From the NCBI RefSeq assembly GCF_024198255.1, contig NZ_JAJVKW010000019.1, positions 62,001 through 126,000 on the forward strand: a DNA stretch of 64,000 nt. Reading direction: 5' to 3'. Each line of letters begins with the position of its first letter. Position 1 is the stretch's first letter. This document shows, in pieces, positions 1 through 13,566 of the stretch. The DNA comes from Myxococcus guangdongensis. GTDB taxonomy: Bacteria; Myxococcota; Myxococcia; Myxococcales; Myxococcaceae. Under the pieces are notes generated by a model. It did no database searches, was not told the DNA's origin, and saw only the letters and a list, made by a program, of their open reading frames with translations. The translations under genes were made by a program, and so were the position numbers.

Positions 1-2993
1 TGCGCATCAGCTGGAAGCGACAAGAATTGCATGACACCATTTCCATCCAGCTGAGGCGGACCCTTGCCACCCCGGTTCGACACCGGCGTTTTCATCTCTG
101 GACCCTGACTCCCAGGCAGTCGCTCCGCTTCGGCAGCGACCCAAACGCCTTCCTCCGCATTTCCCATGGATTCTCGACCAGCAACCGGGATGGCTCCCAT
201 GGATTGGTCATGCTTCAACCGAAGGGATTCGATGAGCGTGACTCTCGGGTCCCCATCCTGGCTCGCATGGATTCTCGGTATTTCGACGCCCCGGGGCAGC
301 GGCCCCAAGAGAGGGGTGCCCGTTGCGGCGTTCCAGAAGCGCGCCCTGCCATCCTCGCCGACGGTGGTCACGTATCGCCCATCCTGACTGAAGAGGGCCA
401 TTCGCCCAGGCGAGCCATGGGGGAGGTGGATGAGCGGAGCGCTTGGAGCAAGGCTCCAGAGCAGCGCGCGCCGTCCTTCGGTCGCGGTGGCCATCGTCTT
501 CCCATCAGAACTCAAGGCCACGGAGTTGACCCGATACAGATGAGGCATCAGCATCAATTGCTGTCCGGTAACGACGTCCCACAATCGCGCGGTCTTGTCC
601 TCGCTCGCGGTCGCCACACGCCCCCCATCTCGGCTGAAGGTCACCGACGTCACGGCTTTGTCATGGCGAAATGACATCAACTCCCGCCTCGTGACGACTT
701 CCACGAGCCTGGCAATCTTGTCCTCACTGGCGATGGCCAGGACGTTGCCATCCGGACTGAATGCCACGGAGGTGATGCGCGCCTTCTGCAGGAGGCCCTT
801 GAGTACGCGTTTCCCAGTTCCCACATCCCAGAAGAGCACCGTCTTGTTCGTGCTGCCCGTAGCCAGCGTCGTTCCATCCGGGCTGAAAGCGAGCGTCGTG
901 ATTCGACTCCGATGTTGCAGCGGTTCTCCGAGGGGTTTGCCATTGACCGTGCTCCACATGCGCACGGTCAGGTCCTCACCCGCGGTGGCAACGCGGGTTC
1001 CGTCCGGACTGAAGGCCAGCGCGTTGATTCCGCCATCGTGGGCCAACAACTCCCCGACCGACTTCCAGGTCTTCGTGTTCCACAGGCGCAGGGCGCCACC
1101 GTCACTGGAAGTCGCCGCCAACCTGCCATCACGGCTGATGGCCACCGCGGTGACGGCGTCTTCATGGAGGAGCACTTCTCGCGGCCTCTTGTCGGCCATC
1201 CCCCAGACGCGAGCCGTCATGTCCTCCCCCGCGGTCAGCAGGAAGCTCCCATCCGGACTGAAAGCCACGCTCAGGACGTTTCCCGCGTGCTCCAGGGAGG
1301 CAGTATCGGGACGACGAAGCTGGAGGACCGAGCGGATGAGCAGGTCCATGGCGGCCGAGGATTCATGGCGTCTCACGGCCTCCACGGCAAGGGCGGCACT
1401 CATCGCCAAGGCAGAGGATGTTTCTCGCAGCGTCGCATCCGCCTTGTTCAGGAAGACGTAGGAGAAGGCTTCGCGCAGCTTCGATGCGGCCTCGGCCTTC
1501 GCCGCGGCAATCTCTCGCTCTGCCTGTTCCTTCTTCGCCTCCGCATCCCACGCTTCGCGCTGTAATCGCGCCACCTCCAGGTGGCTTCGTGCCACCTCCG
1601 CCCTGGCGATACGTTGCTCGTCCTGCGCCGCCTGTTTGATTTGTTCGGCTTCCTCCCTGGCTCGCTGACGATCCCTGTTGGCCTCTGTCCGCGTCAAATT
1701 CGCGTCGGCCTCCGCTTCTTGACGCGCCTGAACAGACACCCGGCTATTGTGCTCCGCGGTGGCGCGCGCCTTCTCTGCATCCCCGAGCTGACCATTCAAG
1801 AGCACTGCCGCCGGCAGCAGCACGATGAAGCCCGTCACCACCAACCCGAGAATGGCATACCGCACGATCCGCCAGTCCACGGGGAGCATGCTCCCCGCCC
1901 ACGACACGGTGAAGACCCGCTCGTAGATGGCATTGCGGACCCGAAGCATCCCCTTCGCCTGGCAGACCACGCCCGACAGCTTGAGGTGCGCCTTGATCAA
2001 CGAGCGGTCCTCGTCGCGCACCCGCCATCCCCGTCGGACATCCTGATACGTCCGAAGCACCCGCTCCGGGTCCGGCGCCCGGCGCGTCAGCATGTCCCGG
2101 ACGAACACCAGGTTGTTGTCCTGGAAGCTCCGCTCCGAGAAGAACGTCCGCTCCACCACCCGGTCTACATCCAGGCGGGACCAGTTCCCCATGCCCTGCT
2201 CATGGTGGTCGACCAACGCCTGACACAGCCGCTGCGTGAGGTACGGATGTCCCCCCGTCCACGCCATGGCCCATTCGAGGACCCGGCGTCCCTCCTCGAG
2301 CGTGCTGCCCAACCCCACCGCCAGCGGCGCGGCCTCCTCGAGCGTGAAGTCCGTCAACTCCACGCGCTGCCCCAGGTTGAACGGGGTGCGCCTCTCGTCC
2401 TGGATGAGGTCTCCCGGCGACGCCACCCCCACGAGCACGAACGACAGTCGCACCAGCTCCGCGTTGCGCGCCCGCGCGTTGTACAGGTAGCGGATGGCCG
2501 CGTAGAAGTCGTCGGTGAAGCCCATGCCGAGCGTGGTGTCGATTTCATCGACGAACACCGTCACCCGCTCCTTCACCTCCGTGAGCACCACCTCCTCCAG
2601 GAACCGCGTCAGTCGCTGCACCGGCCCCTGATCCCCATACTGCCCCCACCACTCGGCCGCGTCGGTGCTCAACCCGAGCTGCTCCTGGATGACCACCAGC
2701 AGCCCCACGTACCACTGGTCCGACGTCACCTGCTTCCCGATGCGCGTCAGGTCGATGATGACCGAGCGAATCCCCTCATCGAAGAGCGCCTCCGCCGTGC
2801 GCACCATCAAGCTCGACTTGCCCATCTGCCGGGCCGTCAGCACGAACGCGAAGGTCCCCGCCCGGCACAACGCCAGCATCTCCGGGTCCGCTCGCCGCTC
2901 CAGGTAGACGCCGCCACCGGCCTGCACCGTCCCGCCCACCGTGTACAGGCTGGTGTCCATCAGCCCGCTCGCGTCGTTGAACAGGGTTCGCAT
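1..2993 (-). CDS. AAA-like ATPase with transmembrane, coiled-coil and WD40 repeats (3' end outside window)
   Basis: Partial: 997 codons are visible and the frame is still open at base 1. The N-terminus is an AAA-like NTPase of the PF14516 kind, with a P-loop variant ARQMGKSS (residues 54-61) and a Walker B VFVDE ending at Glu150. A hydrophobic segment lies at about 378-398, followed by an Ala/Glu/Arg-rich coiled coil to about 530. From about residue 565 there are eight WD40 units, seen as recurring AFSPDG and T(A/V)R(L/M)W cores. The ATG at 2993 is preceded by GGTGG. The design suggests a membrane-anchored signalling NTPase with a cytoplasmic beta-propeller as scaffold; the ligand is unknown. 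It resembles the kinase-nSTAND protein at 10735-13566 in having NTPase, one membrane helix and coiled coil, but has no kinase domain. Confidence 0.85.
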   Translation of the reverse strand, partial: MRTLFNDASGLMDTSLYTVGGTVQAGGGVYLERRADPEMLALCRAGTFAFVLTARQMGKSSLMVRTAEALFDEGIRSVIIDLTRIGKQVTSDQWYVGLLVVIQEQLGLSTDAAEWWGQYGDQGPVQRLTRFLEEVVLTEVKERVTVFVDEIDTTLGMGFTDDFYAAIRYLYNARARNAELVRLSFVLVGVASPGDLIQDERRTPFNLGQRVELTDFTLEEAAPLAVGLGSTLEEGRRVLEWAMAWTGGHPYLTQRLCQALVDHHEQGMGNWSRLDVDRVVERTFFSERSFQDNNLVFVRDMLTRRAPDPERVLRTYQDVRRGWRVRDEDRSLIKAHLKLSGVVCQAKGMLRVRNAIYERVFTVSWAGSMLPVDWRIVRYAILGLVVTGFIVLLPAAVLLNGQLGDAEKARATAEHNSRVSVQARQEAEADANLTRTEANRDRQRAREEAEQIKQAAQDEQRIARAEVARSHLEVARLQREAWDAEAKKEQAEREIAAAKAEAASKLREAFSYVFLNKADATLRETSSALAMSAALAVEAVRRHESSAAMDLLIRSVLQLRRPDTASLEHAGNVLSVAFSPDGSFLLTAGEDMTARVWGMADKRPREVLLHEDAVTAVAISRDGRLAATSSDGGALRLWNTKTWKSVGELLAHDGGINALAFSPDGTRVATAGEDLTVRMWSTVNGKPLGEPLQHRSRITTLAFSPDGTTLATGSTNKTVLFWDVGTGKRVLKGLLQKARITSVAFSPDGNVLAIASEDKIARLVEVVTRRELMSFRHDKAVTSVTFSRDGGRVATASEDKTARLWDVVTGQQLMLMPHLYRVNSVALSSDGKTMATATEGRRALLWSLAPSAPLIHLPHGSPGRMALFSQDGRYVTTVGEDGRARFWNAATGTPLLGPLPRGVEIPRIHASQDGDPRVTLIESLRLKHDQSMGAIPVAGRESMGNAEEGVWVAAEAERLPGSQGPEMKTPVSNRGGKGPPQLDGNGVMQFLSLPADA

Positions 2994-3560
2994 GCTCAAA
3001 CCACCCCGGTGAACGCTCGCGACGAGCACCCCGATTCAAACCGCGTCGCGCGGCGAGCGCGCCGTGGACTTCGCTCCCGGGTGATTGCGAACCTCCCCCT
3101 CGAAAGCCCCGCTCGAGCCGGTTCGGAAGAGACTCCGCGAGACAGCAGGGCAGCAGCACAGGAGAGGACTCGCACGGGCGCTCCGGGGGTTGGCTTCAAC
3201 GCCCGCACAAAGCAAGTGCCAGACCACCTCGGGTCCCGATGAAAACAGGGATTGCGCGCTGGCGCCCCCTGGCTTCGCGAGCGCCGACTGACGCGTCACT
3301 TGCGCGTCAATGCCATGCCAATGACACCCGATTCGCCTGCAACCCGACAGGGCGCCTCCCATCTCAGCCGAGGCGCGCCTACATCTAGCGCTCCGTCCCC
3401 CTGAGTCAGGGCTGCCTTCATCCCCCGCCGAGCACCTCTCATCGACTCGACAAATGCGAGACGAGCCCGCCTTGCAGTCCGGATGCCTGCCCCACGGCCA
3501 GGAGCCCCACCGCGCCAGCATGCGCGGCCAGGGCCCCCGGCCCGGCGTCACGGCATCAAC
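2994..3560. other. 567-bp gap without a convincing gene
   Basis: Lies between two minus-strand genes. A 171-codon open frame on the minus strand (3036-3551) has low-complexity composition rich in Arg, Gly, Ser and Cys, no recognisable domain and no convincing ribosome site, so I do not call it. The segment presumably holds the promoter of the AAA-WD40 gene and the 3' end of the upstream transcript. I see no clear hairpin terminator. Confidence 0.5.
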
Positions 3561-3810
3561 TCACGAGTCGTAACCCGTGTACCCACGCAGCACGACGACC
3601 TTGCGGCTGGCCGGGTAGTACAGCACCGCGAACTGGTTGAACTCGTGGCAGTTGTGGCAGGACACCTCCTGCGTTCCCAGCCACGCCTGCACCTCACCGC
3701 CGCCGGTGAACGCATCGATGGCGGCCAGGAGCGCCGCGCCGTCACCGTAGTAGTTCGAGCTCAGCAGGATGCTGTTCGCCAGGCCCGCGCGGTTCGTCAC
3801 CGTGCCCTCC
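3561..3810 (-). repeat. Diverged direct repeat, copy 1
   Basis: Colinear at nucleotide level with 5115-5364 (constant offset of 1554 bp, no gaps seen over the best part). It encodes the shared C-terminal CxxCH domain. The segment around 3591-3656 is nearly identical in the two copies, which indicates a recent or gene-converted duplication. Confidence 0.8.
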
Positions 3811-4943
3811 TCGAACGTCGGGATGTCCCGGTACCCCGGCCACTGCAGCGCGTCGAACGCGGTGCGCAGGCTGGCGGCCGGCTGCGAGCAGCGGGGCGTG
3901 GTGTACGCGGAGATGGAGTTCAGCCCGTGCCACGCGCCGTTGTTCGAGCCGTCGTTCCACGCATCCCGCGCCGCCTCCAGCGCCGAGGCGTCGATCTCCG
4001 TCAGCGCGAACGGCGTGCTCGGCGTCTCGTTGCAGATGTTCGTCACGTACTGGCACCGCGACACCTGGCGGTACGTGCCACACAGCCCGAAGTCCAGCGT
4101 CCCCGCCGGCTGCGAGTGGATGCAGTCGTACACGGACAGCTCGCACGCGGGCGTCGGCCAGACCTCGTACGCGTCTCCCGTCGTCAGGGCCAGGCTCGTC
4201 ACCCTCGGCACCAGCCGCGCCGTCTTCTGCGACACCGCCTGCCCCCCCTGAATGACGTTGAAGGCGAGCGGAATCGTCGTCGGGTCCATCGCCTGCTCCA
4301 CCGCGGCGTAGGACCAGTCCAGCTTGAAGCTGTCCGCGTCCACGCGCGACACCTGCGGAATCCCATCCGGCCCCGTCACGAGCAGCCCGTCCGCCAGCAC
4401 GTCCGCGCGGCCCCGGTACACCAGGCTGCTGATGGGGTCCTTCACGTAGACGGGGTCCACCTTCTCGTCGATCCACACCGGCGACGTGCCCCGGAAGTCG
4501 AAGAAGCGCGGGTACACCTCGATGCGCGCCGTGTACTGCGTGGGCGTGCCCGTGAAGGTGTTCACCGTGATGAACAAGGGCAGCCCGGAGAGGATGGAGT
4601 TCAGCTCGTGCCCCACCGGCAACACCACCTCGAAGCGGCGCTCGCTGATGATGTTCGCCGTGCCGAACGCGTCATCCGGCACGAAGCTGAACACGTACTG
4701 CAGATACCGGTTCGCCGTCGCCTTCAGCACCAGCGAGCGCACCCCGTTGCGCGTCTCGAACGTGCCCATCGTCTCGAAGCTCAGCTCCAAGGACGCCTCG
4801 GACGCGGAGATGCGCGTCGCCGTCGCCTCCGCCTCGGAGACCGCCAGCTCCTGCTCGAGCGCCGGCTGCCCATCCGAATCCATACAGCCCGTCGTTCCAG
4901 ACAACGCCAGACATGCCATCAAGACATTGCGAAGACGCATCAT
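3561..4943 (-). CDS. Secreted protein with C-terminal CxxCH domain (long paralogue)
   Basis: 460 residues. The N-terminus has a short hydrophobic stretch ending in SGTTGC, a weak lipobox, so it is probably a lipoprotein or secreted protein. The first 300 residues match nothing I recognise and look beta-rich. The last 150 residues are shared with the gene at 5115-5672: a SNNGAWH motif, a TNRAGL..SILL..NYYG segment, and CHNCHEFNQFAVLYYPASRK near the C-terminus. CHNCH fits the CxxCH c-type haem signature, but only one copy is present and no axial Met is obvious. Start ATG 4943 is chosen because CTGGAGC precedes it; the paralogue has the same CTCACCTGGAGC leader. Probably one of a duplicated pair transcribed separately. 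Confidence 0.75.
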   Translation of the reverse strand: MMRLRNVLMACLALSGTTGCMDSDGQPALEQELAVSEAEATATRISASEASLELSFETMGTFETRNGVRSLVLKATANRYLQYVFSFVPDDAFGTANIISERRFEVVLPVGHELNSILSGLPLFITVNTFTGTPTQYTARIEVYPRFFDFRGTSPVWIDEKVDPVYVKDPISSLVYRGRADVLADGLLVTGPDGIPQVSRVDADSFKLDWSYAAVEQAMDPTTIPLAFNVIQGGQAVSQKTARLVPRVTSLALTTGDAYEVWPTPACELSVYDCIHSQPAGTLDFGLCGTYRQVSRCQYVTNICNETPSTPFALTEIDASALEAARDAWNDGSNNGAWHGLNSISAYTTPRCSQPAASLRTAFDALQWPGYRDIPTFEEGTVTNRAGLANSILLSSNYYGDGAALLAAIDAFTGGGEVQAWLGTQEVSCHNCHEFNQFAVLYYPASRKVVVLRGYTGYDS

Positions 4944-5056
4944 TCCGCTCCAGGTGAGTTACTCGGGGAAAATCACAATAACGTGAGCACCCGGCCGCAT
5001 GACGTGTCAATCCCGTCACAGCGGTGCGGGCCCCGAACAGACCTGGGCTGATACAT

Positions 5057-5098
5057 GAAATGAAGAAGGCGCCGACCCCAGGACAAGGGACCGGCGCC
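5057..5098 (-). terminator. Intrinsic terminator of the short CxxCH gene
   Basis: On the minus strand, GGCGCCGGTCCC and GGGGTCGGCGCC form an imperfect GC-rich stem (5068-5098), followed by the T-rich stretch TTCTTCATTTC. It starts 16 bp past the stop codon of the gene at 5115-5672. Confidence 0.65.
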
Positions 5099-5114
5099 CG
5101 GGGACGACGAGACG

Positions 5115-5364
5115 TCAGGAGTCGTAGCCGGTGTAGCCCTGCAGCACGACGACCTTGCGGCTGGCCGGGTAGTACAGCACCGCGAACTGGTTGAACTCAT
5201 GGCAGTTGTGGCACGGCACCTCCTGCGTCGACAGCCACGCCTGCACGTCACCGCCACCCGCGAACGAGTCGATGGCCGCCAGCAGCGCCAGCCCGTTGCC
5301 GTAGTAGTTCGACGTCAGCAGGATGCTCTGCGACAGACCGGCCCGGTTGGTGAACGTCCCGTCC
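5115..5364 (-). repeat. Diverged direct repeat, copy 2
   Basis: Second copy of the duplicated CxxCH-domain coding sequence; colinear with 3561-3810. Differences are mainly synonymous or conservative near the CHNCHEF core. Confidence 0.8.
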
Positions 5365-5672
5365 TCGGCGGAGGGGAAGCCCTGGTTCTCCCACGCCAGC
5401 TCCTGCATCACCGCCTGGATGGTGGTGGGCGTGGTGGGACACTGGGGCGCGATGTACGCCGTCACCGGATGCAGGTAGTGCCACGCACCATTGTTGGAAC
5501 CCAGGTTCCACGTCGCGCGGGCCGGCTCCAGTGATGAGGCATTGATGGACGTCAGCGAGAACGGCACCGGCGTACAGGCCTTGGCCGACGTCGCGACTTC
5601 CCGCCCCCCCTCCGCGAAGGCAGCGAAAGAAAACACAGCGACCACCGCAACCATCAGACGACGGAAGTTCAT
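5115..5672 (-). CDS. Secreted protein with CxxCH domain (short paralogue)
   Basis: 185 residues. A clear Sec signal peptide (MNFRRL, hydrophobic core, likely cleavage after AFA at about residue 20) is followed almost directly by the domain shared with the C-terminal part of the gene at 3561-4943: SNNGAWH, TNRAGLSQSILL, NYYG, CHNCHEF and the C-terminal GYTGYDS. This copy therefore defines the minimal domain as about 150 residues. An upstream in-frame start at 5708 exists, but ATG 5672 has GGAG at the right spacing and gives the signal peptide. CHNCH matches the haem-attachment signature; covalent haem is inference only. An intrinsic terminator follows, so the two paralogues are probably separate transcripts. 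Confidence 0.8.
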   Translation of the reverse strand: MNFRRLMVAVVAVFSFAAFAEGGREVATSAKACTPVPFSLTSINASSLEPARATWNLGSNNGAWHYLHPVTAYIAPQCPTTPTTIQAVMQELAWENQGFPSAEDGTFTNRAGLSQSILLTSNYYGNGLALLAAIDSFAGGGDVQAWLSTQEVPCHNCHEFNQFAVLYYPASRKVVVLQGYTGYDS

Positions 5673-10370: not shown

Positions 10371-10734
10371 GCCGTGACGATAGCAGGCGGATGGACCCCG
10401 AGCGTCCGCGAACCGACAGCGCCCTTGGACCCCTGGCGCGGCCCACCGCCCATCAAACGACACACCCCTGCCCTCGCGTTCACATAGGCAAGCAGACGGG
10501 TCTGCTCAAGATTGGGAACGAGAGTTTTCTCCGGAAAGTCCGACTCCCGAGTCCCCCCACGCTCTCGCCCAGGCTGGCGTCAGTCACCCCCGCGAACAGG
10601 GGCGGTCGCAGCGGCCGCACCCCTTTGCGCCAGTCCTCATGTCCGCTTCCCGATGAACGGCCCGCACCCTTTCGCGGTGGCGCGGGCCGCCCGTGCTTCC
10701 CAGAGGTGCCCCCTCGCCTCGTCGAGTGCAGACC
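10371..10734. other. 364-bp divergent intergenic region
   Basis: Separates the small membrane protein (minus) from the kinase-nSTAND operon (plus). It contains the 16-bp palindrome at 10491-10506. No gene was recognised inside it. Confidence 0.6.
10491..10506. promoter_or_regulatory. Perfect inverted repeat, possible operator
   Basis: AGCAGAC-GG-GTCTGCT: 7-bp arms with a 2-bp centre, in the divergent region upstream of the kinase-nSTAND operon. The size suits a dimeric regulator. No cognate factor is apparent. Confidence 0.35.

Positions 10735-13566
<2,832 letters not shown>

Follow-up and report, generated by a model that had tools for sequence, protein, structure and literature searches.

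Two adjacent genes of Myxococcus guangdongensis encode exported proteins that end in the same domain, and this domain carries the string CHNCH. A CxxCH string is easily mistaken for a haem site, and the question raised by this locus is whether the two proteins are cytochromes or, if they are not, what the shared domain may do. We analysed the pair within its stretch of 64,000 nucleotides (the window) together with the homologues of both proteins, and the comparison of homologues removes the haem site. On balance, we consider it probable, although by no means assured, that the long protein is a lipid-anchored, disulfide-locked surface protein with a binding domain at its tip, and that the short protein is a later, unanchored duplicate of this domain, neither of them being a cytochrome.

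The domain of about 150 residues that had been proposed to be common to the two proteins is real. The two copies are 65% identical over 152 residues (E 4e-65), which is not a chance similarity. Residues 304-460 of the long protein match nearly the whole mature short protein, with 102 of the 153 aligned residues identical, and SNNGAWH, NYYG and CHNCHEFNQFAVLYY are found in both proteins. The short protein (185 aa) is the minimal version expected by the sequence-only reading, namely a signal peptide followed by the domain. The same reading had described both proteins as secreted, and this holds for the short protein, whereas the long protein (460 aa) looks lipid-anchored rather than freely secreted. 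Judged by eye, both proteins start with a signal sequence, and the long form carries a lipobox cysteine behind it. The lipobox of the window protein, SGTTGC, is weak, while LAAC, GATAC and similar lipoboxes are seen by eye in most of the long relatives (five rows gave no match and four a wrong stretch). From these sequence features, the long protein is likely to be a lipoprotein. The features of both genes are listed in Table 1.

Table 1. Features of the two genes, by position in the window
Feature	Position	Strand	Basis
Long gene, likely lipoprotein: signal, two Ig-like domains, cysteine-rich linker and C-terminal alpha/beta CxNC domain	3561..4943	-	
Lipoprotein-like signal of long protein, ending at Cys20 (SGTTGC)	4884..4943	-	Sequence, by eye; clearer lipoboxes in most relatives
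First predicted Ig-like beta-sandwich of long protein	4470..4814	-	AF2 strand pattern; weak Ig-type matches, Z up to 6.0; boundary by eye
Second predicted Ig-like beta-sandwich of long protein	4182..4457	-	AF2 strands and weak Ig-type matches; boundary by eye
Linker of long protein with four constant cysteines (residues 267, 274, 288, 297)	4053..4145	-	Invariant columns in 19-row alignment
CxNC domain of long protein, residues 304-460 (cysteines 304, 352, 429, 432)	3564..4034	-	Alignments
CHNCH of long protein	3645..3659	-	Sequence
Short gene, secreted protein: signal peptide and CxNC domain	5115..5672	-	Sequence, comparison with long protein, tree
Signal peptide of short protein, probably cut after AFA	5613..5672	-	Sequence, by eye
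CxNC domain of short protein, residues 33-185 (cysteines 33, 78, 154, 157)	5118..5576	-	Alignments and AF2 model
CHNCH of short protein	5199..5213	-	Sequence
Terminator-like stem directly after short gene, 13 pairs (10 G-C)	5067..5099	-	Stem scan: 2 sites in region against 1.2 by chance in shuffles

Both genes are under purifying selection, indicating that both are real genes: dN/dS was 0.19, 0.22 and 0.13 in three comparisons of the short gene and 0.26, 0.42 and 0.40 in three comparisons of the long gene, two of these six comparisons involving other genomes only. The CACCTGGAGC box upstream of the start is identical in the two genes. Considering the terminator-like stem that follows it, the short gene may be its own transcription unit.

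The AF2 model of the domain (23 sequences; mean pLDDT 90, pTM 0.85) shows helices and sheet in an alpha/beta arrangement, and CxNC lies in the last sheet, where strand 123-131 turns into strand 136-147. The closest solved fold is that of Maf1, which accounts for four entries (5u50, 5u4z, 3nr5 and 6tut) with Z values of 9.8, 9.2, 9.1 and 8.3, and the next fold follows at Z 5.6. In the best Maf1 match, 130 residues of the predicted model are aligned at an rmsd of 3.8, and the identity to Maf1 is 8-12%. Since models lacking a true match typically reach Z 7 to 8 with this tool, we regard the likeness as suggestive. On the one hand, the fold of the model relates the domain to Maf1, the best Foldseek E-value of the domain against the PDB being 6.8e-3 (1.7e-2 for the long protein). 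On the other hand, the sequence identity is low, the domain does not match the Maf1 family in Pfam, and Maf1 is a eukaryotic, intracellular repressor of RNA polymerase III. Accordingly, a common function is not expected, and the match tells nothing about the function of the domain. The best match in a viral structure library was an unnamed protein (E 9.6e-4, TM 0.38). In the AF2 model of the long protein (pLDDT 87, pTM 0.70), beta strands are grouped in two stretches ahead of the linker. The matches listed here are antibody and other Ig folds with Z no higher than 6.0, in many cases at an rmsd near 15. In view of such weak matches, we limit the claim for these two stretches to "Ig-like".

The expectation of a new, uncharacterised family was borne out, as Pfam, NCBIfam and PHROGs gave no meaningful match. 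Pfam returned no family at E up to 10, NCBIfam only unrelated matches (E 0.14 and 0.22), PHROGs and the defence library PADLOC nothing at E up to 1, and sequence searches of the PDB nothing below E 0.26. In a literature search by topic, no paper on this domain was recognised from its title or the opening of its abstract. The family is nearly confined to Myxococcaceae and is unnamed in the libraries searched. When the short protein was used as a query, 42 of the 96 genomes of the same taxonomic family, belonging to 6 of 26 genera, gave matches (E up to 0.001), a count that includes genomes with fragments only. For a profile and a tree we used 46 distinct complete domains from the first 52 loci, which were chosen by similarity over the whole domain and not by the motif. 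This profile matched 45 genomes in the order (145 searched, E up to 0.01) and again 45 in the phylum (195 searched, E up to 0.05), all within the same family, both counts being inflated by short fragments and a few weak matches. Among the weak matches, G084:C74 is an unrelated protein, as read from its sequence, and G043:C3, G057:C97 and G079:C9 belong to the distant type described below. A contig scan by two conserved peptide patterns gave 19 loci (8 Myxococcus, 5 Corallococcus, 2 Pyxidicoccus, and one each of Hyalangium, Citreicoccus, Minicystis rosea and a record titled Comamonas), and no relatives were found in viral contigs (by two peptide patterns), plasmids or phages.

Minicystis rosea belongs to another myxobacterial order. 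Its member (L065, CP016211.1) is full-length with a domain 54% identical, which may reflect a transfer, while the record titled Comamonas sp. KCTC 72670 (L068) holds a myxobacterial member and seems to be misnamed.

In the tree of the 46 domains, the short form has a single origin (support 84/89) and is nested inside the long forms. Broken or truncated copies occur in several genomes (L045, L104-L107, L054:4477-5166), which fits a dispensable accessory gene with birth-and-death turnover. The myxobacterial lineage is rich in private lipoproteins. The family is worth naming, although it is otherwise most likely an ordinary group of uncharacterised surface lipoproteins.

The profile search also reached more distant proteins, at E 8.4e-7 (G079:C9) and weaker. 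With one of them, L100, as a query, a second large group was found in 50 of the 96 genomes, a few of the weakest matches being the CxNC domain itself, and the profile of this L100 type matched 51 of the 195 genomes of the phylum. The CxNC and L100-type profiles were related by hhalign with a probability of 93.5 over 133 columns. Like the long proteins, the L100-type proteins of Myxococcaceae (L100, L110, L128, L131, L134, L142 and relatives) have lipoprotein-like starts, as judged by eye, and the same C-terminal domain. They differ from the long proteins in their stalk, which where present is mostly PPC-like, below the Pfam cut-off, and in having no CxNC: the site reads, for example, PDYC, PDAC, APGA or GPNG, with one or no cysteine. 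Up to six L100-type matches occur in one genome. The cysteines of this domain come in pairs, with two early and two late cysteines in 8 of 39 rows, the early two only in 19, none in 12 and never an odd number; one of the 40 rows (L145) was dropped as a doubtful match, and many of the rows are close kin, so these counts are not independent events. The late pair consists of the hairpin tip and the last residue. As the last strand is predicted to run back towards the hairpin tip, the late pair could close a disulfide.

In the CxNC group itself the cysteines are constant. Collected by the motif, 52 rows included two incomplete ones, and each of the other 50 has all four domain cysteines. These comprise 41 long proteins with four linker and four domain cysteines, and nine short proteins that have the domain four only, besides cysteines in or before the signal peptide. 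A query with the stalk found 69 places in 56 of the 96 genomes. Of these we inspected 18, picked because the frame was short or the match distant; at least four further places also have a short frame. In 12 of the 18, the protein ends two residues past the fourth cysteine of the linker. One other locus is degenerate, and the remaining five continue into a cysteine-free region of similar length. Since stalks occur without the domain and short forms consist of the domain only, the four linker cysteines and the four domain cysteines behave as two separate units, and the domain occurs on different stalks or alone. In the twelve stalk-only proteins (L148-L155, L157, L163-L165), the domain boundary behind the linker is unusually sharp. 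Homology of the five cysteine-free regions (L158-L162) to the CxNC domain was expected, but hhalign did not support it (probability 2.5 against the CxNC profile and 11.9 against the L100-type profile), and these regions were not used as proof.

Considering that relatives lack parts of CHNCH, the domain cysteines are probably structural, forming disulfides. Taken by their pattern, the four constant domain cysteines of the CxNC subfamily would fit two disulfides or a Cys4 site equally well, and an alternative, in line with the metal-binding family that the sequence-only reading had named as an option, is that they hold zinc or copper, with CxNC forming a turn like that of a zinc knuckle in a beta hairpin. 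Zinc knuckles sit in beta-hairpin turns, the model would place CxNC at just such a turn, and the other two domain cysteines accompany CxNC in all 50 complete proteins. However, the cysteines of exported proteins are as a rule oxidised, those of the distant group stand at other positions and always in pairs, and the linker holds four more constant cysteines, as is typical of disulfides. Accordingly, we consider a metal site unlikely.

In the disulfide reading that we prefer, the long protein would be an outer-membrane lipoprotein oriented outwards, in which a Maf1-like alpha/beta tip follows the four-cysteine linker and a stalk made up of the two Ig-like domains, the whole being held by a lipid anchor. 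The four constant domain cysteines, including those of CxNC, would form structural disulfides and thereby lock the domain once it is outside the cell. The short protein would be a later duplicate of the tip domain, of single origin, which has its own signal peptide and is exported without an anchor, and may represent a diffusible version of the same binder. We infer that the tip domain would bind a partner, such as a surface ligand, a matrix polymer or another protein, rather than bind haem or act in catalysis. Binding is the most likely role in view of the stalk architecture, the lineage restriction and the lack of a shared catalytic signature. A counterpoint is that the histidine behind CxNC is kept in 43 of the 46 domains and in three further complete ones, which structural disulfides alone do not explain. 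In a wider and more doubtful form of the preferred reading, this extracellular bacterial Maf1-like fold would serve one predatory family as the tip piece in a modular repertoire for surface recognition, mounted on varied stalks (two Ig-like, PPC-like) or occurring alone, with the disulfides of each subfamily, or a Cys4 centre at CxNC, tuning the binding face. If such a recognition module exists, it would offer a new handle on the display of surface proteins by social predators.

The gene neighbourhood was searched for a partner of the pair. To the left lies an AAA_35-WD40 protein (3-3035, minus strand), which is cut by the left end of the window. To the right lie a ribbon-helix-helix protein, an LPG_synthase_TM protein, a CpsB/CapC-like protein, a zinc-type dehydrogenase and a protein-kinase domain fused to an nSTAND1 NTPase (10657-13563, plus strand). 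Of the 16 further 20-kb loci that were compared, five have the same right-hand neighbours as the window pair, indicating local synteny, and no specific partner gene recurs: beyond synteny, only kinase-domain and AAA_35-WD40 genes match. The AAA_35-WD40 gene matches one of the 16 loci (36%), and the kinase gene matches nine, of which five are syntenic (77-96%) and four are at 30-32%. In Pfam, three of these kinase-gene proteins have in common the protein-kinase domain only, the parts behind it being different (nSTAND1, TPR, WD40). Kinase genes are numerous in myxobacteria, and the kinase gene was therefore not counted as a partner; as a candidate it was rejected because its similarity is that of the kinase domain only. 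Neighbours are also shared locally among some of the other loci (e.g., L170, L176, L177).

With a conserved N-terminal part and a separable C-terminal domain on a myxobacterial lipoprotein, the long protein resembles the SitA toxins, and it could be a SitA-like toxin, or the neutraliser of one, that is passed between kin by outer-membrane exchange. According to PMC8546572, the C-terminal nucleases of SitA toxins are polymorphic, and the toxins share an operon with sitI. In contrast, the C-terminal domain here is conserved across species and forms one continuous family, in which the 46 rows are 34-96% identical to the short form of the window, and no immunity partner was seen to recur in the 16 loci, although immunity genes vary in sequence and a variable one could be missed. 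Inhibitor or neutraliser folds do appear among the VIA-align matches (NuiA, Z 5.3; Tsi3, Z 4.3), together with SciW and DcrB, but Z 4-5 is background by the tool's own note and these matches were not used. Accordingly, we consider a role in such toxin exchange highly unlikely. About as unlikely is an exported enzyme with the CxNC pair as an active site for thiol-disulfide exchange, as the CxxC is constant in the subfamily but absent in homologues and lies at a hairpin turn, unlike the CxxC of thioredoxin.

The least probable alternative, and to us a very improbable one, is that most members carry covalently bound haem at CHNCH and a few have lost it. The motif reads CHNCH in 34 of the 46 domains, CQNCH in four, CPNCH in three, CHNCT in three and CNNCH in two. 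Accordingly, CxNC is present in all 46, and the position of the haem ligand is His in 43 and Thr in 3. The set of 46 leaves out fragments of broken copies, three complete but slightly shorter domains removed by a length filter (L039 with CNNCH, L041 and L043 with CHNCH) and four copies of the long form that are truncated by the edge of their locus (all CHNCH); with these seven copies added, His is found in 50 of 53 and Thr in 3 of 53. In favour of haem are this frequent CxxCH and the export of the domain, as in substrates of the Ccm system. However, the sequence-only reading, which had proposed a mono-haem domain, had itself named homologues without the conserved CxxCH residues as evidence against it, and such homologues exist, both the three CHNCT domains and the distant ones, in which the site holds a single cysteine or none. 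The CHNCT copies lie in frames without stops, and the Thr pair L036/L038 is constrained (dN/dS 0.40). In the tree, CHNCT occupies two separate places, as two sister sequences within a CHNCH clade and as a third sequence on a long separate branch. In the CcsBA and CcmF/H mechanisms as described in PMC10663686, haem is ligated by the CXXCH histidine, rare CXXCK exceptions using dedicated synthases, and PMC4158909 reports for mitochondrial HCCS that haem is not attached without this histidine.

A second ligand is not conserved either. In the 46 rows, no Met is conserved above 60%, and His above 60% is found outside the ligand position (93%) only at the x of CxNC (80%) and in column 39 (61%), although a five-coordinate haem needs no distal ligand. 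No cytochrome family was matched in Pfam or NCBIfam, and a profile search of the PDB gave one cytochrome c3 at E 3.5 over 20 residues. Among the fold matches listed for the domain model there is no cytochrome c fold, which does not speak either way. The domain is like c-type cytochromes in being exported and in carrying CxxCH in most members, but differs from them in a ligand His that is not fully conserved, in having no family match and in the loss of CxxC among wider homologues. Based on this conservation, we rejected the haem site at CHNCH. Had it been true, it would have meant an unknown cytochrome fold, and the evidence speaks against it.

A further observation concerns the similarity of the two window genes around the motif. 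The identity of the paralogues peaks at the C-terminal end, where the CHNCH block agrees in 19 of 20 residues and in 18 of 20 third positions; in the least similar block, 4 of 20 residues agree. The DNA around CHNCH (3564-3700 and 5118-5255) is near-identical, unlike the rest of the domain, which suggests either strong constraint or a recent gene-conversion tract.
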